58,126 nt of DNA from contig JAKIWG010000014.1 of NCBI GenBank assembly GCA_022750155.1, positions 1-58,126 on the forward strand, read 5' to 3'. Position 1 is the first letter of the stretch, and each line of letters begins with the position of its first letter. Shown piece after piece: positions 119-32,533 of the stretch. The notes under the pieces are model-generated. The model was not told where the DNA came from and did no database searches. It saw nothing but the letters and a program-made list of their open reading frames with translations. Both the position numbers and the translations under genes were made by a program. The DNA is from Thermoplasmata archaeon. Lineage in GTDB: Archaea; Thermoplasmatota; Thermoplasmata; Lutacidiplasmatales; UBA184.

Positions 119-3100
119 TCAGTTTATCGGATGTTGGATGCCGGCTCTCTTCGCCGCTCGTCGTCGCCAAACCATGACTACCGCCACGCCGGCGCCTGCG
201 ACTGCAATCGCCCCGCCGACGAGCGCGAATTGCCACGAGAGGCCCGAGGTATTCGACTGAATCACCGTGAGCTTCACAGCATGGGAGGCGTGTTCCCCAA
301 GCTGGTCGTGAACGGAGACGGTGATGTTGTACTCCCCGGTCTGGCTCGGAACACAGGAAAGCTGCGGGGCGTTGACTGGGACACATCCCGGCGGTAGTCC
401 GGAGTAGAGGTAGGTTAGTGTCCCATATCCCCCGTCCGGCTTCACGAGGAGAGTGAACAGGTGGTGTACCACCGCGACGGCCGGCGCTACCACCGTGAAG
501 TCGAAGATGATGTGAAGGCTGGTCGTGGAAACTACGGAAATCCCGTTCCGATCTGTAGCGTTGACCGAGAGATTGTAGAACCCAGCTTGGGTCGGCAGGC
601 AACCGATGGCGGTGCGATTGATCGACACACATCCCGGGGGAAGGTTCACGTAGACGTAGGAGTACGGCGCGGCTCCCCCGGAGGCGGTGGCGTTTATGAG
701 GATGGTCTCTCCGAGGACCGGGGTCGCATTCGAAACCGTTAGCACCACGGTAAGGGCGGGGTCTACGGCCACGATGAACGATCCGTTCGCCGAGCCGCCC
801 CCTGAGTCATTCACCCATTCCTGTCCGTGGTAGGTTCCTGGAAGTGCGTACGTATGGTTCGGGTCGCTCAGGCTCGCGGAGGAGTTGTCCCCGAACACCC
901 ATGAGTACGCGAACGGTCCGATCCCGCCGGATAGGTTAGAGCTGAGATGAACGGGGGTGCCGGCGTCGGTTGGGTCTGGGATCGCGTACGGATTGACCGC
1001 GAGGGGCGCGACGACCCCCAGGTTCGCAGCTGCCGTCGCGCTGTGACCGACGCTATCATTGAGGAAGACCCGGATCGCGTACTGCCCTGAGACGCCTGGA
1101 GAGCAGGCGAGAGACGAGGTGTTGGAGGTCAGGCAACCCGCGGGGAGGCCGGTGTACGTGTACGTCAGCCCGCCCACCGCTGGGGAGGAACTCACGTCGA
1201 TGCTGGTCACTGAGTTCGTCGGGGACCCGATTTCCACCACCCCAGGACTCACGGTCATGCCCGATATCACGACGAATGAGACGTTCAGCTGCGTGGTCGA
1301 GGTCACCACGTTTCCCGCGCTATCGTTCACCGACACGCCGATTGAGAAGACCCCCGCCTCGTTGGGGGTACAAGTGAGGTTCGATGTATTCAGCGTGGAA
1401 CAGCCGTGGGGGAGGCCAGAGTACCGGTAGCTCAGCGCCCCTACACCCCCAGTCGTGTTCACGCCCAGTTTCGTTGTCGAGTTGATGGCGATTGTGGCGG
1501 GGCTCGCCTTGAATGAGGTGATGACGTACCGGGCGACCGTCAGGTTCGCCGAGGTGGTGGATCCGTGTCCGGCGCTATCGTTCACCCGAACACCCACGAC
1601 GAACTGCCCGGGAGCGGTCGGTGTGCAGGTCAGCAACGTGGCGTTGACACTCGAACAGCCCGATGGTAGTCCGCTGTAGGCGTAGGATAGCGGCCCGATT
1701 CCCCCCGCGGCGCTCGTGTTCAGCTGAGTGCTTTGGCCGAGTGAAATCGTGGCGGGAGTTACTTGGAACCGCGATATCGTGAGGGCGGCCGAGATGGCGA
1801 GCGTCGCGTTCGCAGACGCGTGGCGGCTCCTGTTGTCGCCTACGCCCAGCGTGACGCTGTAGGTTCCCGAGCCACTTGCCGACGTGCAGTTAAGGCGGGT
1901 AACGTTCGAACTTGCACACCCCGGCGGAAGACCGGAGTATGTGTAGGTGTACCATTGGGAGATTCCCGCGGCGGCCGCGTGGAACGATGCCACCCCTCCG
2001 ACCAGGATGCTCGAGGGGATCACAGTCAACGAGGCGGTCAGGTTAATCCCGATTGCCCACGTATCGCCGTAATAGTTCCGGGTCGCATTTGGTGCCCCTC
2101 CGAATAGGACGCCGTAGCCGTCGGTGGTGTCCCAGATGAGGTCCGTCAGAGTGCGGTTGGTGGGGCCTCCTGTAACGTTGATCAGGGTCCAGTTGCTCCC
2201 GACCCATGCCCACATGTCCTTGAGGCCCCCGCTCATCGAGTCGCCGCCGAAAAGGAGGACGTGCCCCAGAACCGGGTCGTAAGAGATTGCGGAAGACTCG
2301 CGGGCGGAGGGGGAAGTCATTGGGGCAATCCTCGTCCAGTTCCCGCCCGTGAACGTCCACGTATCGCCGAGATAGGCCCCCCTGCTCGCGGAGAGGCCTC
2401 CGAACAGGACGACGGACCCACTGTTCGGGTCGTCCGCTATCACCGCGCTTTGCCGGGCGGACGGGTAACGACTCGAGTTGCTGAACGTGTAGCTCGTCCA
2501 GTTCCCCGCCTTGAAGGTCCAGGTGTCCGCGAGGTCGGCAAAATTATTCGTTGAATATCCCCCGAAAAGGACAACGCATGCATCGTGCTGGTCGTAGGTC
2601 ATGCTAGCGGCCTCCCGGGCACGGGGAGAGACACCGGGCGAGAGTTGGGTCCAGACTCCCGCGTGAAACTTCCAAGTGTCGTTGACCGCGTTGTACCCCA
2701 CCCCGCCACCGAACAGGACGACGTACTGATCGGCGGCGTCGTAGGCCATCATCAGGTAGGTGCGGTTCGCGGGCTCGGGGATGAGCAGGCGGGTCCAGAC
2801 GCCGTGCGAGAACGTCCAAGTTTCGCCGTTGAAGCCAGAGGAGGCGCAACCGGAGAAAAGGACGACGTAGTGGTCGGCGGCGTCGTAGGCCATTCCGTAA
2901 CAGGCGCGGGCGTTCGGGGCACTATCACTGAGAGTGGTGATGTTGAGCCACGGTCCCGGGTCGAGGAGACGAGGGGAGAGACCGGGGGAGAGGGCGCAAT
3001 GGGAGATACTCGAGGAGCGTGAGATCAGGCAAGGAGGAGCCTGCGGGGAGCCGCCAGGCCCAGCCCCCCGCGCTAAGGAGGCCCATGCGGCTGTGGTCTG

Positions 3101-3295
3101 CTCGGCGGGATAGGTGAGCTCGGAGGTGAACGGTGACCTGGAGGGGTGCGAGAACGGGCGGGGGGCGGGGTAGATCTGGACAGTGTAGCAGGCGAGGAGC
3201 AGGCCCACGACGGCGAGGGCGAAGCAAACCGGTCGACTGGAGACGCGGTCCCCAGTTGAAGTGGCGCCCTCATGTTTCATGGGACCCCCGTGCAA
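119..3295 (-). CDS. Secreted, membrane-anchored Kelch and Ig/PKD-repeat protein
   Basis: A 1,058-residue predicted surface protein. A hydrophobic signal segment lies at about residues 21-43. Six Kelch-type repeats follow (about 125-415), each with a YD...VVLFGG core followed by DTWTF-like strands, which would form a beta-propeller. Seven Ig/PKD-like modules (about 420-1010) come next; six share a SGLPxGC...L.C.P..G.Y..V.VNDS pattern with a cysteine pair per module, and one is a classical PKD unit (WVFGDNSS...HTYALPGTY). A single helix (about 1023-1043) and a basic tail anchor the C terminus. Many N-x-S/T sequons suggest glycosylation. A second ATG at 3280 (MKHEG...) is an equally good start. 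Function is probably adhesion or cell-surface binding; the ligand is unknown. Confidence 0.88.
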   Translation of the reverse strand: MHGGPMKHEGATSTGDRVSSRPVCFALAVVGLLLACYTVQIYPAPRPFSHPSRSPFTSELTYPAEQTTAAWASLARGAGPGGSPQAPPCLISRSSSISHCALSPGLSPRLLDPGPWLNITTLSDSAPNARACYGMAYDAADHYVVLFSGCASSGFNGETWTFSHGVWTRLLIPEPANRTYLMMAYDAADQYVVLFGGGVGYNAVNDTWKFHAGVWTQLSPGVSPRAREAASMTYDQHDACVVLFGGYSTNNFADLADTWTFKAGNWTSYTFSNSSRYPSARQSAVIADDPNSGSVVLFGGLSASRGAYLGDTWTFTGGNWTRIAPMTSPSARESSAISYDPVLGHVLLFGGDSMSGGLKDMWAWVGSNWTLINVTGGPTNRTLTDLIWDTTDGYGVLFGGAPNATRNYYGDTWAIGINLTASLTVIPSSILVGGVASFHAAAAGISQWYTYTYSGLPPGCASSNVTRLNCTSASGSGTYSVTLGVGDNRSRHASANATLAISAALTISRFQVTPATISLGQSTQLNTSAAGGIGPLSYAYSGLPSGCSSVNATLLTCTPTAPGQFVVGVRVNDSAGHGSTTSANLTVARYVITSFKASPATIAINSTTKLGVNTTGGVGALSYRYSGLPHGCSTLNTSNLTCTPNEAGVFSIGVSVNDSAGNVVTSTTQLNVSFVVISGMTVSPGVVEIGSPTNSVTSIDVSSSPAVGGLTYTYTGLPAGCLTSNTSSLACSPGVSGQYAIRVFLNDSVGHSATAAANLGVVAPLAVNPYAIPDPTDAGTPVHLSSNLSGGIGPFAYSWVFGDNSSASLSDPNHTYALPGTYHGQEWVNDSGGGSANGSFIVAVDPALTVVLTVSNATPVLGETILINATASGGAAPYSYVYVNLPPGCVSINRTAIGCLPTQAGFYNLSVNATDRNGISVVSTTSLHIIFDFTVVAPAVAVVHHLFTLLVKPDGGYGTLTYLYSGLPPGCVPVNAPQLSCVPSQTGEYNITVSVHDQLGEHASHAVKLTVIQSNTSGLSWQFALVGGAIAVAGAGVAVVMVWRRRAAKRAGIQHPIN

Positions 3296-3674
3296 AGTCC
3301 CCGGAACGGATGAGTTGTCGCAATGGTCCCCGCGGGCTCTTCATAGGGTTCGGCCACTTGGCGTACCTGGAACTGTCCCCTTCCTGACCCCCCAGCTGTT
3401 CACGCCATCTCCTCCCCCGAGAGGCGTTGAGACATTGGCGCGCCCACGACTTTCAGGAGACGGCCCAAGCATCAGTCCGGTCCGCGACATCGCCCTCTGG
3501 AAATCCACACGATTGCCACGCTTTAGAGAGCCCGAGGGTCTAGAACCCTTTTCCGCGGGGAGGGGTATCCCTCGCTACGCCGGCTAGGACCGATGGCCCG
3601 AATCCTCGCTGCAAGGAACGTCCCTGACTGGGGTCCGACGGATCAGTGTTAACCCGGACAGGCCGAATCAACGG
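3296..3674. other. Divergent intergenic region
   Basis: About 380 bases between the Kelch protein and a small membrane protein transcribed the other way. It contains a weak minus-strand TATA-like box near 3344 (CCTATGAAG) suitable for the Kelch gene, and the plus-strand box at 3647-3653. I see no convincing gene or structured RNA in the rest. Confidence 0.5.
3647..3653 (+). promoter_or_regulatory. TATA-like box for the 3675 gene
   Basis: TGTTAAC centred 25 nt before the ATG, the spacing expected for a leaderless archaeal transcript. There is no Shine-Dalgarno-like element between box and start. Confidence 0.5.
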
Positions 3675-8170: not shown

Positions 8171-8203
8171 TACTGACGGTTAACGAATTACCTTTATCGT
8201 CTC
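8171..8203 (+). repeat. Left terminal inverted repeat of the IS630-type element
   Basis: Begins TACTGACGGTTAACGAATTA. It pairs with the reverse complement of 9683-9715 at 25 of 33 positions, and with 21 matches in the outer 26. The inner part contains the transposase TATA-like box. Confidence 0.75.
8191..8198 (+). promoter_or_regulatory. TATA-like box of the transposase inside the left repeat
   Basis: CCTTTATC centred about 28 nt before the ATG at 8223, so the transposase message would be leaderless. Two of the bases that differ between the repeats fall here, as if the left copy kept promoter function. Confidence 0.5.
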
Positions 8204-8222
8204 ACGGGACCTGCCTCTCGAC

Positions 8223-8756
8223 ATGGGACGGTGGGCCCAACGACACCGCGACGCCGGGATGCTCGAGGAACGTCGACTGCGAGGCCTCCGATTACTTCGG
8301 GGTGGGGTGAGTCCGGCCGAAGTCGCTCACCGACTCGGTGTCACTCCCCAAGCCGTCCACTACTGGCAAACTCGCCTGTCCGAGGGAGGTGCCTCGGCCT
8401 TGAGGGCTCAACCCCGGTCGGGCAGGCCTTCGCGCCTCCGACCCGATCAGATCGCGGCCCTTCCTGAACTCTTGGCGAAGGGAGCCTTGGCCCGAGGGTT
8501 CGAGACCGATCTCTGGACCACCGAGCGGATCGCCGACGTTCTCGCCCGCGAGTGGGGCATACACTACACCAACGTCGGCGTCTGGAAGCTCCTCAAGGCT
8601 CACGGATTCTCTTGGCAGCGCCCGCGGCGCCAGGCGCGGGAGAAGGATCTCCGTGCGGTGAAGAATTGGAAACGTCACACTTGGCGGCGGTTTGAAAGAA
8701 AGCCAAGCGGAAGCGGGCCGTCCTTCTCTTCCTCGACGAAAGCGGATTCTCTCTGA
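8223..8756 (+). CDS. IS630 transposase, N-terminal frame
   Basis: The first frame of the transposase (177 codons). It holds a helix-turn-helix (GVSPAEVAHRLGVTPQAVHYWQ, about residues 28-48, shown by the AEVAHRLGV and VHYWQ parts), an RSGRP linker and a second winged-helix region ending GIHYTNVGVWKLLKAHGFS, all typical of IS630 DNA-binding domains. The frame runs into a stop at 8754-8756 before any catalytic residue. The DDE domain continues in the -1 frame from about 8696. An A-AAG tetramer at 8699-8702, in phase and just after the upstream stop of the -1 frame, is a good slippage site: the fused product would read ERKAKRKRAVLLFLDESGF across the joint. Confidence 0.85.
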   Translation: MGRWAQRHRDAGMLEERRLRGLRLLRGGVSPAEVAHRLGVTPQAVHYWQTRLSEGGASALRAQPRSGRPSRLRPDQIAALPELLAKGALARGFETDLWTTERIADVLAREWGIHYTNVGVWKLLKAHGFSWQRPRRQAREKDLRAVKNWKRHTWRRFERKPSGSGPSFSSSTKADSL

Positions 8757-9640
8757 TCCCCTACACGGGGAAAACCTGGGCACCCAGGGGCCACACACCG
8801 ACGTTGGTGCATCAGGGTCGCTGGCCAAAGTTCTCGGCGATCAGCGCCGTCACGCCGAGGGGAAAGCTGCTCATCCGGGTGTACAAGGACTCGATCAAGG
8901 GTCCCCGAGTCGTGGCGTTCCTCCGCCGCCTCCTCCGGCATCTTCGTCGCCGACCCTTGATCCTGTTCTGGGACATGGGACAGCCCCACCGGTCGGTGTT
9001 GGTCCAGGAGTTCCTTCGGAAGCATCCGCGCATAGAGACCCACTGCTTCCCGGGCTACAGTCCGGAGCTGAACCCGGATGAGTGGGTCTGGTCGCACCCG
9101 AAGCGGCACGAACTCGCGGGATACGCGCCCCATGATGTGGGCGAGCTCCACGGCGGCCTGAGGAGGGCAATGATGTGGATGCGGGTCCGCCCCGCGCTGA
9201 TCCGCTCGTTCTATCGGGCAGGCGGGCTCGCCTCAGGATCACCCCTCGTCCTTCGGGACCGCCATCAGCGCGACTACGGTCACTTTCCACGAACCATTCT
9301 CTCGCTTCCACACGCGGAGCGCGCGGAGCGAGAAGGCCCGGTCCCGGATCGCATAGTCCGTCCGGCAGGAGACCACCACGGCAGAACCGAGATCCCGGAT
9401 CTCGACCTCCTTGTTCTCGACCTTCGCGAACGTCCGCTTACGGGGAGGCTGGTGGCCTTTCAGGACCCCGGCCTTGCCGACCGAGTTACCCTCGGGTTGG
9501 ACGAAGAGCACGTCATCGGCCAGCAGTTCATCGAACACAGCGCTGGTATCGGGCGCCGGGTCGGAATCTCCCTGTCGGAGTCGCTCTTCCAGTTGCCGGA
9601 CCTCCTCGATCGCGCTCACGAGCTCCCCTCCCTGCCGTGA
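8696..9640 (+). CDS. IS630 transposase, DDE catalytic frame (-1), stop displaced
   Basis: The continuation frame has no start of its own before the catalytic motifs. It opens after TGA at 8693-8695 and carries the three DDE motifs: LLFLDESGF, ILFWDMGQPHRS and SPELNPDEWVW. Family resemblance ends near AGGL at about 9235, where an IS630 protein normally stops. Here the frame stays open to 9640, reading antisense through the passenger gene. Translated as a -1 fusion from 8223, the product would be about 470 residues, with some 130 foreign residues at the end. The element may still be active if the tail is tolerated; otherwise it is an inactivated copy. Confidence 0.75.
   Translation, partial: KKAKRKRAVLLFLDESGFSLIPYTGKTWAPRGHTPTLVHQGRWPKFSAISAVTPRGKLLIRVYKDSIKGPRVVAFLRRLLRHLRRRPLILFWDMGQPHRSVLVQEFLRKHPRIETHCFPGYSPELNPDEWVWSHPKRHELAGYAPHDVGELHGGLRRAMMWMRVRPALIRSFYRAGGLASGSPLVLRDRHQRDYGHFPRTILSLPHAERAEREGPVPDRIVRPAGDHHGRTEIPDLDLLVLDLRERPLTGRLVAFQDPGLADRVTLGLDEEHVIGQQFIEHSAGIGRRVGISLSESLFQLPDLLDRAHELPSLP
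9239..9619 (-). CDS. NTF2/SnoaL-like protein (DUF4440 type), IS passenger
   Basis: 126 residues from a GTG start with GGGAGGGG just upstream. An initial helix (EEVRQLEERLRQGD) is followed by a cone-like alpha-plus-beta pattern: LLADDVLFVQPEGNSVGKAG, then strands VEIRDLGSAVVVSCRTD, FSLRALRVWKRENGSWKVTVVAL. This is the usual layout and length of SnoaL-like/DUF4440 proteins, small enzymes or ligand-binding domains. It lies wholly inside the IS630-type element, convergent with the transposase and ending within a few bases of where the transposase should stop. No role in transposition is known for this fold, so it looks like captured cargo. Confidence 0.8.
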   Translation of the reverse strand: MSAIEEVRQLEERLRQGDSDPAPDTSAVFDELLADDVLFVQPEGNSVGKAGVLKGHQPPRKRTFAKVENKEVEIRDLGSAVVVSCRTDYAIRDRAFSLRALRVWKRENGSWKVTVVALMAVPKDEG

Positions 9641-9682
9641 CTGACGCGAGCTTAAGGCAATTCGGAAAGACGAGCGACCTCG

Positions 9683-9715
9683 GAGAGTGTGAAGGCAATT
9701 AGTTAATCATCAGTA
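9683..9715 (-). repeat. Right terminal inverted repeat of the IS630-type element
   Basis: On the minus strand it starts TACTGATGATTAACTAATTG, matching the left end at 25 of 33 positions and also beginning with TA. Its outer bases supply the last codon and stop of the flanking membrane-protein gene. Confidence 0.72.
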
Positions 9716-10141
9716 ATCGGCCCGTTCGATGACTCGGTGCGGCACCAGATGCGCCGCGATCATGGCGACGGCACCGATCGCTGGGACCCCAAGGGCGAGG
9801 CTCACGGGGGAGCCCCCCCACAAGATGATGAGGGAGGCTGCCCCGAAGAGTCCCGCGTACAAGCCTACGGTCACTCCGAGGATGAACATTCCATCCCAGG
9901 GATCGCGGAGTCGGTCGACCCAGGTGGATACCTCAGAAAGTCGACTCCGCTCGGGGGGTGATGGGCACCCGAACAGATCGGCCCCAATTCGGCGGAACCG
10001 GTCGACCTCTCCGACGCGCGACAAGGCCAAGCCAGCCTCCCGAGCCCTCCATGGATCGCATCGCCAATGAAACTTCGCACGACAGTCCGACCCCCGCGGG
10101 CTGCCGCCTCCCCGGCCTAGCTTGATCGGCCACCCTAACAC
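9710..10141 (-). CDS. Small membrane protein with IS-supplied stop codon
   Basis: Up to 143 residues. Two hydrophobic helices (MFILGVTVGLYAGLFGAASLI and LALGVPAIGAVAMIAAHLV) lie near the C terminus, and the N-terminal half is polar and partly of doubtful reality; TTG codons at 10030 or 10024 are alternative starts. The gene ends GCC GAT TAC TGA, of which TACTGA belongs to the end of the IS element. Before insertion it would have read GCC GAT TAG, so the protein gained one tyrosine and was not truncated. Function unknown. Confidence 0.55.
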   Translation of the reverse strand: MLGWPIKLGRGGGSPRGSDCRAKFHWRCDPWRAREAGLALSRVGEVDRFRRIGADLFGCPSPPERSRLSEVSTWVDRLRDPWDGMFILGVTVGLYAGLFGAASLIILWGGSPVSLALGVPAIGAVAMIAAHLVPHRVIERADY

Positions 10142-10397
10142 TCCCCGGCAAGGTCGCCACCGGAGTTTGCTCTGTCTCCGTTCTCCTCAGTCGATTCATC
10201 GTCGGCGGCTGGCGGCTGAGCGGGTGCGTCCGGGTCCTGCCCGCGGGCGGAACCCCACGTTGGGTGTTCGGGGCGGATTCAATCCCACCTCGTGCGGGTC
10301 GAGGGGTGCCGGCACGCCCTGCTATGACCGGTGTATCCACCGGAGCCGTTCACCCCACCCGGGTCATTATGGCGGTCGGAGAGGGTGGGCCTCCCCA

Positions 10398-11446: not shown

Positions 11447-14400
11447 ATGCGCGCCGTTCAGCGAGCGAACCGAATGCTCTCAACGCACCCGAACCAAGCG
11501 ACCGAGACTCCCCGTCCGAGCGAGCGCCGAGGGATCGCCCGGGGGGTGTGGGTCAGCTTCATGCTTTGCGTGCTAGCGACGATGATCCTTCCTTCCAGTG
11601 CCTTGGCGACCGCCCCGGGAAGCGTCTCGGCCCCCGTCCACCTGCTCGCAGCGCCGGTCCATGTCGTACACCCGCATTCCGCGCCCGTCAGCAAGTCCCC
11701 TCAACTCTCGATCACCACGCATCAGGCGATCCCGGGATCCAACCCCGCTGGCCAGCCGTGGATCAATGGGCCGTCGCTCCAAGATCCGATGCTCAAGCTC
11801 ACCCACACGCTGGACGTTCAACGCGCCCAGATGACGCTGGCCCATGCTGCCAGCACGTCGACCGGTCAAGCCCGGCCCGTCCCGGCGGTCATCGCGATCC
11901 CGACGGGGACGTTCAGCGGATACGTGAACGCAACCCACGGGCTCGGTCTCTCCGGAGTCCTGGTCCAGTGGTTCGCCCTAGCGGGACAGATCTGCCCGTC
12001 CACCACTTGTCCGGCCGTCTCGACCTCCCTGACCGGATTCTTCACGGTCACCTGCGGGGCCGGAGCCGGCTACACTCAGGCCAGCGTAGGGTGGTATCTG
12101 ACCAACATCACGTTCAACACGTGCATCCAGAACGTCAACACCTACATCGGCACCATCTACATGGTGCACGACGCCATCGGCACCGGGATCATCAAGTCGG
12201 ACACCCCGAGTCACCAGAACGTTTCCGGCGTCCTCGTCGCGGCCACCTCCCGTGACGGGTCGGTCGTCGCCCAGCCCAGCGTGACGAGCGACATCTACGG
12301 TCGTTTCTACGTACCCATTCCGCCCCTGCCTTCTCGAATCGACTTCAGCGCCGACTACGGATACTTCCCGAACTTCACCTACGTCAACGCCACCCCATGG
12401 GAAAACGTCAGCCTCGGCTTCGTCTATCTTGAGCACCAGGTGCTCATCCAGGCGACCCTCTACGATGCGGTCACCCGCGCCGCCATCCCGACCGATCCGT
12501 TCGGCGGACGCTCGATCACCGGTTGTAACGCCCTGACCAACGTCTGCTCGTTGCAGGGGGCGCTCCAGATCGGAGCCACGGTGAACGCATTTGCACCACC
12601 GGGGGTCGATCTCGCCCAGGTGCAGGCGACCGGATACATCTCCGATACGCAATCCATCGGAGTGGTGCCGAAGCTCAATCCCGGACAGGTGTTCCACCTT
12701 CCCCCGATCTTCCTGGTCCCGCTCGGGGGCGCATCGATCACCGTGGACCTGACGAGGAATCATAGCGAGCCGGCCCCCCGTTGGGGGACGGGCCTGTACT
12801 ACATTTCCGGCGGCTCGCTCGACGGGTACAAGTTCGTCACCGTGACCCCGAGCCGGAACACGACGACGTCCACGACGGCCAATCTCGCGTGCGGCGCGAT
12901 CGGTAACACGGTCACGGTCCCGGGCTTGCCCCTTCGCATGAGCCTGTCCGTCCAGCCCGACACGATCGGAGTCTGCGGGATCCCGCCCCAGTGGCCCATC
13001 CCCGGCCTCCTCCCGGTCTGGCCCAACGCGACCGCGCTCAACTTCACGCCGGACGAGCTGGTCAACGGAGGGTTCCTCAACCTCACCCCCGGAACGTACA
13101 TCGAAGGGAACGTCACGACTCAGGGGCTCGCCCCCGGGTTTGGCCACGGCCCCGCCGCGTTCCAGGTCTCCATCTCGTCGGAGTACTACACCGCCCTCCC
13201 GATCTACCCGTACGTCTACAATTCCGGCGGCGCTTCCAGCCCGTGGCTCTGCGGCGCCGGGGCCTTCTCCATCCCCGCCCCCGGCCCGACCGGTGGAGAC
13301 ACCTTTTGTGCACCGGCACCGCCCGATGCCGACCTGATCACGGCCAGTGCGCCGACGGTCAACTACTACAGCAACTACACGTGGGCCTCGACCGCGCTCA
13401 TGTGCTGCAATCTTTCGCAGGAACCGTTCCCGCTCGGATCGGCCAACGCCGAACGGTTCAACACGATCAACCTCACGACCGGGGGCGCGGTCTACGGACG
13501 CGTCCTGAGGAACAACACGACGCTGGGGGTCCAGTTCGGCTCGTACAAGATCTGCACGGCCGGCCAGAACCCGTTCTACCCCTGTGCCACCGGGGCGATC
13601 AACCTCGACGGCACGGTCTTCAGCGGCCCGGGCGTCGCCCCGCCCGGCTACGACTCCATTACCGTCTCCGCCTCCGGGTACGACCCGGATACGGTATGGG
13701 TCTATGTGAACGGCAGCACGGGCAACACCTCGTTCGGGAACATCAGTCTGCAGTCGTTGGGAACCATCGACGGACAGGTCGTCGACCCTCTGGGTCATGG
13801 CCTGTACGCCGCCACCCTGACGGCGGCCCACATCTACAACCCCAACTCCGGCAAGATCGTCGGCGCCGGCCTCTCGACCACCGACGGGCACTTCAACGGC
13901 ACCATCCTCGCCGGGTGGCTACCCTGGACGACCTACCGGATCACCGCGAGCGCTCCCGGTTACACCTCCAACTGGGTCTGGGTCAACACGAGCCGTGGGC
14001 TCACCACCCACGTTCCGACGATCGTGGTCCAGCCGATCGCGGTGAACGCGACCGGGGCCTCGCAGGGAACCTGGCTCGACGGAACGTTGCGTGACAACGT
14101 CACGGGCTATGGCGTGCTCTCCAGCTCGATTGCGGCGTGTCCCACCGACGGGGGGTCCTGCATCCAGGTCCAGGACGGCAGCAACCCGGGCGGGTACTTC
14201 AACCAAAGCATCACCCCGGGCCTGTACAACCTGACGGTGAACACGGCCGGTTACTACCCGGTCAACATATTCTTCAACGCCAGCAACCGCACGTTCGTCC
14301 ACCTCGGGATCATTCCGCTCTCCCCGTACGCATGGGTCTCGGGCAACGTCTCGATCAATCCGTGGCAAAACATCTCCGTGCGATTCGGGAGCGGCTACCG

Positions 14401-17314
14401 GGGCATTCCCTTGGGGCCGGGCGCCGCGGTACAGGCCTGCACCAGTAGCGGGACCCTGTGCGGGCTCACGGCCACGATCGACTCGCTCGGGGGGTTCAAC
14501 GCGAGCGTGCCGTTCGGAGTGCTCGACATCATCCGCGTGAACGGCCTCTACGCGGGCGGCGGCTGGAGCGCGCCGGCGGCGTTCGACCAGAACACGTCGA
14601 TCTTCAACACGACCGGCTCGTGGACGCCCCTGCCTCCCTCTGCGACGATTCCAATGGACATCTTCGGCGCGGTGACGGGCCTGGTTCGGGACAATTCCAC
14701 ATACAATGCGGGCCTCGGCACCGACGTCTCGCCGGTCCGGTGGGCTTCGGTAAGCGCGTTGACGGTGGGCCATTTCAATGCCGTGGTGACCAGCCAGGCC
14801 GGCTCCGGTGGCCAGTTCACCTACTTCCTGCCCGGCGGCAACCGGGTCGGGAACACCACGGTGACCGCGCTCATCCCGAACGTATACTACCAGCTGTATG
14901 AGAAGCTCAAGTTGCCCATCGTGTCGGCCCAGACCACCGTCGCGCCGAACCTGACGCTTGACCGGTACGGTTGGGTCAACAGCTTCCTCCGCGATTCGGT
15001 GAGCGGCGCCGGAACGCCGTACCTCGGGGCCAGCGCGACCTACGTGGACCTGAGGAACTCGACCATCTACCAGACGAGCGGCGTCGCAAATGCCAACGGC
15101 TTCGTGAACCTGACGTCAGCGGCGGGACGCACCGTCGTCTTCGCGGCGGGGCCGGGCAACGACTACAACACCACGAACGTCACGATGCGGGTCAACTCCT
15201 CCGCCACGACCTACTACAACTCGACCTCCGCGCTCACCGTCGGCGCGCTGCGGGTCGATCCCTGGGGCTGGATCCGCACTACGGACCTCAATTACAGCGT
15301 GGTGCCCTTCGCGACCACGATCCGCGACGCCGTCAACCAGCTTGCCCTCCCGCTCGCCACCATGACCGTGGCGACATCGGACATCAGCCTCTCCGGGAGC
15401 TGCGCCGCCACCTCCAACTGGGGTGGGATGTGCCTCAGCGATGCACCGATCGGGCCGAAGGACACGCTCGCGGTCAAGGCCGGGGGCTACGTCGGCAACT
15501 CGACCCTCGTGGCGGTGACCAAAGGTCTCATCATCAACGAGTCGGTGATCAACCTGACCGGGGACGGCATCCTCGCCGGGATCGTCGTGGCCTACCCGAG
15601 CGGCCTCCCGATCTCCGGTGCCACCGTCACGGCGTGCCCGGTGAAGAGCACGATCTGCTCGACGGCGACCACGAATGCCACCGGTTTGTTCTGGATCAAC
15701 GCCGCGCCCGGTCTGGAGTACCTGCAGTTCGACGCGCAGGGGTTCGTCAGCAACACGTCCGTCGTCGCGAGCCCCTGCTCGGACTGCTTTGACTGGATCG
15801 GCACGATCACCGTCGCCCAGTTCGCCTACGTCGGGGGCGTCATCCGGGGTCTCCCCTCGGGCCTGCCCGTCTCCGGGGCGACGGTGAGCGTCTGTTCGCC
15901 CCTCGGTTCTCCGACGGGAGCGTGCGGGTTCTTCGTCGGCAGCAGCAAGTCCGGCAGCTTCCTGCTCGGGGCGCCGGCCGGCAACTACATCATCGCGGTG
16001 AACGACACGTTCTACAACACCACCTACTTCCCCATCTCGCTCAACGCAGGGGAACAGGTCAGCGTCGGCACGATCTTCCTCAACCAGTTCGGCACCCTGC
16101 TGGGCTCGGTCGAGTCCGCCACGGGGTTCGAGCCGGTCTCGAACGCGACCGTCCTCGCCTGTCCGGACTGGGCCGGCGGCGGCTGCGTCTCGCCGCTGCT
16201 CACCCAGTCGAACGGCCACTTCGGCCTCATGGGCGCCCCGGGCCCGTACGAGATCGCAGTCTCCGCTCCGGGCTATACCGACGCCTACGTGCCGGCGCGC
16301 GTCGTGAGCGGAGTGACGACCTCGCTCAACCCGATCCTACTCTATCCGCTGGGCACAGGGATCGCCTACCCGGTCACCGGCACCGTCGTGAACGCCTCCG
16401 ACCCGACGCAGGGTCTCGCCGGAGCGACCGTCGCCGTCAAGATCGGCGCGACGGTGGCGGCCTCCACCACGACGTCGGTGACGGGCGCGTTCCACCTGAA
16501 CGTCTTCTGGGGAACGTACAACCTCACGGTGAGTTCCACGGGCTGGGCACCGGTCGTCGAGACGTTGACGGTGCACGCCCCGGTACCGGAGCTCGTCATC
16601 GGGCTCTCGACGATGACCTACACGCTCCAGGGGACGGCGCGCGACGGCCTGACCGGCCAGGCGCTCTCCGGCGTGCTGATCTCGGAGGGAGGGGGCGGAT
16701 TCTCGACGACGCTGGGGAGCACCGACCTCAACGGCCTCTACAGCTTCCCGCTCGCGAACGGGACGCACTACCTGATCGCGTCCTACACGCCGGGAGGCGG
16801 GGTCGTCTACCCGACCGTCGCCTTCTCGGTGACGATCAACGGCCTCAGCCAGACCCACGACCTCAACCTCGACCCCCCCACGACCCAGGTCTACGGGCTC
16901 GTCGCGAACGCCGCCTCCGGACTCCCGGTCTCGGGCGTGACGGTGCTCATCTCCGGGGTCACGGTCAACGGGGTGCCGGAGTCGTACAACGTCACCTCGA
17001 ACGTGGTCGGCGAGTTCAACGTCTCGGTCTGGGCGGGCAAGTACACCGCCGCCGTGAGCGCCACCGGCTTCAGCACGTTCACGCCGCAGACGTTCACCGC
17101 CGACACGAGCGTGCACGCGCTCACCGTCCGCCTGGCGCCGATGACGGCGGGCAGCGGGTCGAACACCCCGACCGGCATGAGCGGGTTCGTCCTGCTCGGA
17201 GCCGTCGCGGGGATCGGCGCCGTCGCCGTGCTGCTGAGCGCACTCTACGTCACGCGGGCCCGATCGCCGCCCCGGTCGGGCCCCGCACCCTCAGGTCGGG
17301 GGAAGAGTTCGTAG
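11447..17314 (+). CDS. Giant surface protein with carboxypeptidase-regulatory-like repeats
   Basis: 1,955 residues. A signal segment lies at about residues 33-54. The body is a string of Ig-like carboxypeptidase-regulatory (CarboxypepD_reg) or transthyretin-like modules with the recurring form G.v.g...LPVSGATV...G.f.l..p.G.Y.l.v...GY, best seen in the last seven (for example GLPISGATVTACP, GLPVSGATVSVCS, GLAGATVAV, ALSGVLI, GLPVSGVTVLI). Many N-x-S/T sequons are present. A C-terminal helix (about 1913-1935) and a basic tail anchor it. Repeats of this kind are known from archaeal and bacterial surface proteins as structural stalks. Likely an adhesin or cell-envelope stalk; no catalytic domain was seen. 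Coding is strong and continuous, with no frameshift. Confidence 0.9.
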   Translation: MRAVQRANRMLSTHPNQATETPRPSERRGIARGVWVSFMLCVLATMILPSSALATAPGSVSAPVHLLAAPVHVVHPHSAPVSKSPQLSITTHQAIPGSNPAGQPWINGPSLQDPMLKLTHTLDVQRAQMTLAHAASTSTGQARPVPAVIAIPTGTFSGYVNATHGLGLSGVLVQWFALAGQICPSTTCPAVSTSLTGFFTVTCGAGAGYTQASVGWYLTNITFNTCIQNVNTYIGTIYMVHDAIGTGIIKSDTPSHQNVSGVLVAATSRDGSVVAQPSVTSDIYGRFYVPIPPLPSRIDFSADYGYFPNFTYVNATPWENVSLGFVYLEHQVLIQATLYDAVTRAAIPTDPFGGRSITGCNALTNVCSLQGALQIGATVNAFAPPGVDLAQVQATGYISDTQSIGVVPKLNPGQVFHLPPIFLVPLGGASITVDLTRNHSEPAPRWGTGLYYISGGSLDGYKFVTVTPSRNTTTSTTANLACGAIGNTVTVPGLPLRMSLSVQPDTIGVCGIPPQWPIPGLLPVWPNATALNFTPDELVNGGFLNLTPGTYIEGNVTTQGLAPGFGHGPAAFQVSISSEYYTALPIYPYVYNSGGASSPWLCGAGAFSIPAPGPTGGDTFCAPAPPDADLITASAPTVNYYSNYTWASTALMCCNLSQEPFPLGSANAERFNTINLTTGGAVYGRVLRNNTTLGVQFGSYKICTAGQNPFYPCATGAINLDGTVFSGPGVAPPGYDSITVSASGYDPDTVWVYVNGSTGNTSFGNISLQSLGTIDGQVVDPLGHGLYAATLTAAHIYNPNSGKIVGAGLSTTDGHFNGTILAGWLPWTTYRITASAPGYTSNWVWVNTSRGLTTHVPTIVVQPIAVNATGASQGTWLDGTLRDNVTGYGVLSSSIAACPTDGGSCIQVQDGSNPGGYFNQSITPGLYNLTVNTAGYYPVNIFFNASNRTFVHLGIIPLSPYAWVSGNVSINPWQNISVRFGSGYRGIPLGPGAAVQACTSSGTLCGLTATIDSLGGFNASVPFGVLDIIRVNGLYAGGGWSAPAAFDQNTSIFNTTGSWTPLPPSATIPMDIFGAVTGLVRDNSTYNAGLGTDVSPVRWASVSALTVGHFNAVVTSQAGSGGQFTYFLPGGNRVGNTTVTALIPNVYYQLYEKLKLPIVSAQTTVAPNLTLDRYGWVNSFLRDSVSGAGTPYLGASATYVDLRNSTIYQTSGVANANGFVNLTSAAGRTVVFAAGPGNDYNTTNVTMRVNSSATTYYNSTSALTVGALRVDPWGWIRTTDLNYSVVPFATTIRDAVNQLALPLATMTVATSDISLSGSCAATSNWGGMCLSDAPIGPKDTLAVKAGGYVGNSTLVAVTKGLIINESVINLTGDGILAGIVVAYPSGLPISGATVTACPVKSTICSTATTNATGLFWINAAPGLEYLQFDAQGFVSNTSVVASPCSDCFDWIGTITVAQFAYVGGVIRGLPSGLPVSGATVSVCSPLGSPTGACGFFVGSSKSGSFLLGAPAGNYIIAVNDTFYNTTYFPISLNAGEQVSVGTIFLNQFGTLLGSVESATGFEPVSNATVLACPDWAGGGCVSPLLTQSNGHFGLMGAPGPYEIAVSAPGYTDAYVPARVVSGVTTSLNPILLYPLGTGIAYPVTGTVVNASDPTQGLAGATVAVKIGATVAASTTTSVTGAFHLNVFWGTYNLTVSSTGWAPVVETLTVHAPVPELVIGLSTMTYTLQGTARDGLTGQALSGVLISEGGGGFSTTLGSTDLNGLYSFPLANGTHYLIASYTPGGGVVYPTVAFSVTINGLSQTHDLNLDPPTTQVYGLVANAASGLPVSGVTVLISGVTVNGVPESYNVTSNVVGEFNVSVWAGKYTAAVSATGFSTFTPQTFTADTSVHALTVRLAPMTAGSGSNTPTGMSGFVLLGAVAGIGAVAVLLSALYVTRARSPPRSGPAPSGRGKSS

Positions 17315-31564: not shown

Positions 31565-32533
31565 CTACTTCACCGCGGGCCCGAGTCGGCGGCCCATCAG
31601 CCGTTCGACCAACCGGCTCGTCGATCGCAGTGTGACCTCGGTGACCGCGCTCACGCGAGCGACCTGCGCCCGGCTCCGCCGCTCGCCGTTGCGCTCGGCC
31701 GCGAGGTAGATCAGCGCGGCGACCAAGCCGTGGGGCGAGAGCCCCGAGAGCTCCGGGTTCTGGTTGGCCTCATCCAGCATCCCCTCCACCGTGGTGCGCA
31801 CGCTCGGGGAGAGGGCGAGTTCCTCGGCGTATCGGGCGAGGAATGCGCGGGTGCCCACCGAAGGGATGTTGGTGTCCACGCCCCGTTGCACGACCTTGAA
31901 GGCGCGTCCGACTTCGGAGCGGCGGGCTCCGACCCCCTTCGCGACCTCGCCGAGGGTCCGGGGGATGGTGTAGCGCCGACATGCGGCGTAGACGGTCGCG
32001 CCGACGCTCGAGGGCAGGCTGCGTCCGCGGAAGAGCCCGCGGACCTTCGCCTCCCGGTAGATCCGTTCCGCCTCGGCCAGGACGACCGGGGGCAAGGTGA
32101 GCCGTTCCCCACACTGGGCGATCGAGGCCCTCGCCTGCGATCGCTCGAGCGGACCCTCAACGGCACGGGCGGTCTGGCGCTGCATGACGCGCCGGAGGTG
32201 CTGGAACTCGTAGCGACGTTGCCAGTTGAGCGGGCGGCCCTGGCCGTCCCGGTTGAGCGTGAGCATGGAACCCAGGGAGCGTTTCGAGCCGCCGGGCGCC
32301 ACGAACGGGCCGATCCCTCGTCCGCTCCCATCCGAACTCTCGTTCGACGAAGGCAACGGGGGCGGAGCGACGATCTCCGACTCCTCGAAGACCAGGCCAC
32401 AGTCCGCGCAGTGGATCTCGAACCCGGTCGGGTCCGCGATGCGCCGCGAGCCGCTGCACATCGGGCACTTCGGCTCGCTCGATCCGCCCGGTCCCACCGC
32501 GGTGGGGGCGGGTCGGGACCCCGTCCCTGTCAC
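31565..32533 (-). CDS. tfb: Transcription initiation factor TFB (TFIIB)
   Basis: 322 residues from GTG. An N-terminal zinc ribbon (CPMC...CADC, about residues 23-48) recruits RNA polymerase; the B-reader/B-linker region contains GSKRSLGSMLTLNRDG; two cyclin repeats follow (about 130-225 and 225-320: ERIYREAKVRGLFRGRS..., AVYAACRR replaced by TVYAACRRYTIP, then LVAALIYLAAE). It bridges TBP-TATA-BRE and RNA polymerase. The leaderless promoter at 32557-32566 supports the GTG start. Length and motifs are normal, and no paralog is seen in the window. Confidence 0.95.
   Translation of the reverse strand: MTGTGSRPAPTAVGPGGSSEPKCPMCSGSRRIADPTGFEIHCADCGLVFEESEIVAPPPLPSSNESSDGSGRGIGPFVAPGGSKRSLGSMLTLNRDGQGRPLNWQRRYEFQHLRRVMQRQTARAVEGPLERSQARASIAQCGERLTLPPVVLAEAERIYREAKVRGLFRGRSLPSSVGATVYAACRRYTIPRTLGEVAKGVGARRSEVGRAFKVVQRGVDTNIPSVGTRAFLARYAEELALSPSVRTTVEGMLDEANQNPELSGLSPHGLVAALIYLAAERNGERRSRAQVARVSAVTEVTLRSTSRLVERLMGRRLGPAVK

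Follow-up and report, generated by a model that had tools for sequence, protein, structure and literature searches.

A passenger-carrying (transporter) IS630 element in a Thermoplasmata archaeon and its two-ORF subfamily

Insertion sequences (ISs) of the IS630 family are usually described as consisting of a transposase only. At positions 8171 to 9715 of the DNA analyzed here (the window, 58,126 nucleotides, which make up one contig of a 2.1-Mb Thermoplasmata genome assembled in 51 contigs), an IS630-type transposase and an oppositely oriented NTF2-like gene lie within a single pair of inverted repeats. This raises the question of whether the second gene belongs to a mobile element or merely neighbors one. 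A previous examination of the letters alone (here, the sequence-only reading) had put forward a transposon with cargo, and comparison with related elements supports this view, identifying 8171-9715 as a passenger-carrying (transporter) IS630 element. Very probably, it belongs to an IS630 subfamily with two ORFs and has captured an NTF2-like (DUF4440) gene that came from the lineage of its host. The range of this subfamily extends over several genera within a single archaeal family. The features of the element are given in Table 1; the IS proper probably corresponds to 8173-9713.

Table 1. Features of the element at 8171-9715 (window coordinates)
Feature	Position	Strand	Basis
Left terminal inverted repeat, outer TA	8171..8203	+	Repeat match; right-end matrix (inverted)
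Transposase ORF1, DNA-binding half, 177 aa	8223..8756	+	HTH_33, HTH_29; NF033545
Frame-change place	8691..8704	+	A-run comparison with relatives
Transposase ORF2, DDE catalytic half, -1 frame	8708..9229	+	DDE_3; NF033545; DDE spacing
Block missing from cargo-free relatives, ~398 bp net	9230..9637	.	Alignment and distances
Passenger, NTF2-like DUF4440, 126 aa, GTG start	9239..9619	-	DUF4440 match
76-bp right-end module, first bases ACTGA	9640..9715	+	Matrix, R2, relatives
Right terminal inverted repeat, outer TA	9683..9715	-	Repeat match; right-end matrix

The transposase carries the winged-helix domains HTH_33 and HTH_29 together with DDE_3 (E = 4.5e-29), and its catalytic D, D, and E are separated by 78 and then 35 residues. 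Scored separately against the NCBIfam IS630 model NF033545 (cut-off 100), the first half reaches 103.7 bits and the second 107.7 bits. The three DDE motifs recognized in the sequence-only reading are present; what had been overlooked there is that the two halves occupy different frames, ORF1 being followed by a catalytic half in the -1 frame. This second frame has no stop at the usual place and remains open to 9640, traversing the passenger gene in antisense. Among the 18 subfamily elements for which both ends could be placed (8171-9715 included), the frame change is marked in 14 by 7 or 8 A residues and then a G, the run being missing in the other four, i.e., the 8171-9715 element (GAAAGAAAG), L076, G044, and G009. 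Translation of 17 elements placed the catalytic half in the -1 frame for 12 of them, and it lies there likewise in 8171-9715. G098, whose A-run is one A shorter, reads as one continuous 340-aa frame, and no read-through was obtained in the frames tried for G085C382a, G085C382b, G009, and G044. A run that varies by one A from relative to relative fits slippage, whether ribosomal or transcriptional, making it a candidate slippage site; the use of frameshifting (slippage) in the IS630 family is already in print (excerpt of PMC5009743). Erosion of this A-run in 8171-9715 makes it probable that the copy is an inactive transposon relic.

The 18 elements comprise 14 that are cargo free (1101-1149 bp), one into which another IS has inserted, and three gene carriers. 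In the cargo-free elements, the right end is found within ~90 bp of the aligned transposase end, the point at which 8171-9715 has ~398 bp extra, little above the length of the NTF2-like gene. When seven elements of 1138-1149 bp from six other congeneric genomes were aligned to 8171-9715, they matched it throughout except for one extra block, the one containing the NTF2-like gene, as expected from a transposon with cargo. The left ends also agree in position, 52 bp upstream of the transposase ATG here and 50-54 bp in the relatives.

The set of 18 omits the transposase copies whose two ends were not placeable, namely L084, L087-L089, and L097-L107, which are decayed or at contig edges, and L108-L116, nine copies of a single-ORF IS630 group (37-44% identity). 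A class search in 400 genomes evenly drawn from a larger group added matches that were all at or below 40% identity. L082 (G091) was considered as a fourth carrier and counted instead as a nested IS, its extra DNA splitting the transposase; at this locus (L082:1713-3107), the IS630 transposase is interrupted by another IS with an ORF that, by eye, resembles an rve/IS481-type transposase. An end-like site in G049:C138 was dropped, being near a contig end in a genome for which no transposase match was listed, with ~0.4 chance matches estimated. Of twelve right ends that either had no transposase match (eight) or lay by transposase fragments or contig ends (four), ten were examined and had no clear left end with cargo. 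At L148:4204-4268 in G095, a subfamily right end stands with no transposase match in the 5 kb fetched.

The two other carriers harbor different genes. L077 (G090) is an element at 1458-3635 with a 320-aa transglutaminase-like cargo (transglutaminase core, 25.4 bits; cut-off 23). L076 (G088), at 1792-3556, has a 174-aa cargo ORF on the minus strand (2886-3410) with a weak PH-like match only (E = 0.021). The G+C content of this ORF by codon position (0.63/0.47/0.70) suits coding better than that of another frame tried (0.69/0.64/0.47), and it is the least certain of the three cargo genes. All three genes are antisense and are placed after the transposase 3' end and ahead of a 76-bp right module, leaving 9 to 25 bp between the cargo and transposase ends (counted, for 8171-9715, from the aligned transposase end). 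The shared orientation alone, with n = 3, proves nothing.

The right module is itself a recurrent feature of the subfamily. The distance from the pentamer ACTGA to the right terminus is exactly 76 bp in 15 of the 18 elements, the three carriers included, and in all three carriers the passenger lies to the left of this pentamer. This internal ACTGA is the pentamer of the repeat tip, such that the tips of the module mirror each other (ACTGA...TCAGT). It falls within the transposase frame in some relatives and past its stop in others; coding conservation may explain part of its maintenance, since the pentamer is in frame in some of them.

As to mobility, alignment within the lineage, the check proposed in the sequence-only reading, did recover related elements; it did not recover a further copy with the NTF2-like cargo, the 8171-9715 unit being present once in its own genome and no element with this cargo being found in the 77 other genomes of the genus. 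The left flank matched in one of the 78 genus genomes, its own, and on the right the matches in other genomes are almost solely to a HAD gene from ~10400 on, with one 52-base match nearer than this gene in G032. No empty site is visible because the flanks are not conserved in the other congeneric genomes. Evidence of movement comes from G031, in which two cargo-free copies (L085:1281-2428 and 9057-10204) are identical at 1147 of 1148 positions and have different flanks; the bases outside the TA differ on the left, and also at the single right base available for the second copy. Near-identity of two copies in different flanks indicates that the subfamily moved recently. The G031 pair, 7.8 kb apart in the same orientation, is a possible composite unit.

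The single-copy status of the unit also fits an explanation by two insertions, whereby an IS that had lost its right end would have landed next to an NTF2-like gene already in place. The end at 9715 would then be the relic of a second copy, and the unit as a whole would never have been mobile. Right ends with no nearby transposase match do occur in the order (e.g., G095:C78), and the A-run has been lost at the frame change, so 8171-9715 may be a relic, both in keeping with such a history. Two coincident insertions, however, would not be expected to reproduce the slot, the 76-bp boundary, and the orientation that recur in two other elements, one of which, L077, has both ends, both transposase halves, and an eight-A run all present. 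We consequently regard two insertions as unlikely, if the most serious of the alternatives, and favor a subfamily member with a captured gene.

How firmly are the ends of this element defined? The left terminal repeat and the reverse complement of the right one match at 25 of 33 bases, with TA outermost on each, just as the sequence-only reading had described. A match of this size was reached by 1 in 200 first-order random sequences. The gapped local score is 28, to be compared with a 95th percentile of 24 and a 99th percentile of 31 in 300 first-order random sequences. Taken alone, the inverted repeat is only moderately unlikely, and it could in principle be due to chance, in which case the element would stop just past the transposase and the NTF2-like gene would be a neighbor. 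The gapped score, in the top 5% and outside the top 1% of random sequences, is compatible with this, and so is the outcome with a left-end matrix (34 positions, drawn from the elements that also supplied the right-end matrix below), in which 8171 was outside the top five sites of the + strand (best, -1.9 at 16924); on the - strand, the best site of that matrix was 9715 (1.3).

A right-end matrix derived from the relatives speaks against chance. It spans 42 positions and was built on 14 right ends, those of 13 cargo-free elements and of the IS-split element of G091, leaving out the 8171-9715 element, L076, L077, and the second G031 copy. On the + strand of the 58-kb window its best site was 9674-9715, with 16.6 bits, followed by -2.2, and on the other strand 8212-8171, with 8.5, followed by -4.7, placing 9715 and the inverted 8171 far above all other sites in the window. 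A nearer right end at ~9320, as the cargo-free length would predict, was ruled out with this matrix, which has no good site there; nor is there a site among its best near 9240, where the sequence-only reading had allowed for closer repeats that would exclude the NTF2-like gene. The same matrix found a single site in L077 (23.9; next, -9.0) and in L076 (10.5; next, -5.3), and was the sole model to find the L076 right end. With filters off, a second right-end model (R2), built on those 14 sequences too, put 9640-9714 at the top within 2.1 kb (E = 0.0033). With default filters, R2 did not report the right end of the 8171-9715 element in 88.7 kb and reported L077 alone in 9 sources; with filters off, it missed the L076 right end. 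We take the ends of 8171-9715 as settled because the relatives' matrix picks them, and a chance repeat retains almost no probability. TA is present at both outer ends, as in most of the 18 elements, consistent with a TA duplication at 8171-9715.

The oppositely oriented 126-residue gene had been correctly identified as NTF2-like, with a DUF4440 match at E = 2.4e-14; the nearest solved structure is 2r4i, an uncharacterised protein (E = 2e-5). Relatives with 44-65% identity were detected in 5 of the 77 other genomes of the genus, those of G035 and G025 with one TAG inside each. The search over 106 genomes of the order yielded the same five, and the cargo protein, when used to scan contigs, matched 2 distant bacterial loci. 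At the relatives' loci (up to ~1.5 kb per side), there was no transposase match, no TACTGA, and no end-matrix site above -1.0. The G090 cargo presents a similar picture, with a relative at 63% identity in G087, a genome of the same genus, and no transposase or end nearby in the fetched locus (up to ~1.5 kb per side). With relatives of both cargo types, NTF2-like and transglutaminase, occurring by themselves in congeneric genomes, the data are consistent with the host lineage as the simplest source of the captured cargo. That the NTF2-like gene might be an accessory transposition gene of the IS rather than cargo, as its fixed place and intact reading frame could suggest, is scarcely credible given its absence from the 14 cargo-free elements, the different genes that two others carry in the slot, and the location of its relatives outside such elements.

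The dN/dS of the NTF2-like cargo against three of its five relatives (G035 and G025 left out) was 0.12-0.23, values that are obtained with dS near saturation and mostly reflect history outside the element. Those of the transposase halves against G001 were similar (0.19 and 0.23). For the G090 cargo against G087, dN/dS was 0.20, again with dS near saturation.

Phylogenetically, the elements of G088 and G090 group as sisters (100/100) and 8171-9715 branches deeply, joining the long branch of G017; grouping of the three carriers as one clade is not rejected (AU p = 0.32). Because the sister elements of G088 and G090 carry different genes, cargo appears to have been captured repeatedly or exchanged, and several captures in the subfamily are likely.

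A simple mechanism can be proposed for the captured-gene element. A fusion transposase would be made from the two frames by frameshifted expression, bind both inverted repeats, and transfer all of the intervening DNA, presumably with the cargo, into a TA. A chromosomal NTF2-like gene would have been taken in downstream of the transposase 3' end, ahead of the 76-bp right module, likely through recombination of two IS copies flanking the gene or through a second right end located beyond it, and could then be expressed from the element. Captured DNA may survive in this slot because an insertion there harms neither the transposase nor the ends, and a harmless slot would explain the recurring position without any special mechanism. 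A bolder interpretation is that the subfamily constitutes a gene-capturing system with a dedicated slot, the 76-bp module acting as a separable end that is re-usable past a neighboring gene, so that single genes would be loaded, exchanged, and carried antisense; we consider this rather improbable. In any event, three elements with three genes in one slot lend themselves to studying gene acquisition by a minimal IS. Should the slot prove general, small host genes could move between archaeal chromosomes on elements annotated as plain ISs.

Elsewhere in the window, the product of 31565-32533 is related to transcription factor IIB (NCBIfam E = 4e-52; 177 bits, under the model cut-off of 384), an indication of archaeal origin. 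A 1955-aa ORF at 11447-17314 has many glycine- and asparagine-rich stretches and a hydrophobic C-terminal stretch, by eye perhaps a surface protein, and 119-3295 encodes a protein of 1058 aa in which Kelch and PKD domains are present.

With the IS630 family, 8171-9715 shares the NF033545 transposase, the 35-residue D-E spacing, and inverted repeats with outer TA, and it differs in having a gene unrelated to transposition and an eroded A-run. Archaeal IS630 elements with passengers were not encountered in the titles and abstract openings of the literature searched, a body of text in which subscription papers are mostly not represented. Composite transposons likewise hold a passenger between their ends; 8171-9715 has one transposase gene rather than two flanking ISs. 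Composite passenger-carrying transposons were undetected in archaea according to an excerpt of a 2019 survey (PMC6563490). Were the slot a dedicated one, the IS630 subfamily would be a small transposon counterpart of cassette systems. The closest parallel is with ISs that carry passenger genes, for which the term "transporter IS" is in use (excerpts of PMC3129680 and PMC5009743). Like these, 8171-9715 combines IS ends and a transposase with a passenger unrelated to transposition; it differs in belonging to the IS630 family, in residing in an archaeon, and in being part of a subfamily whose slot holds three different genes.
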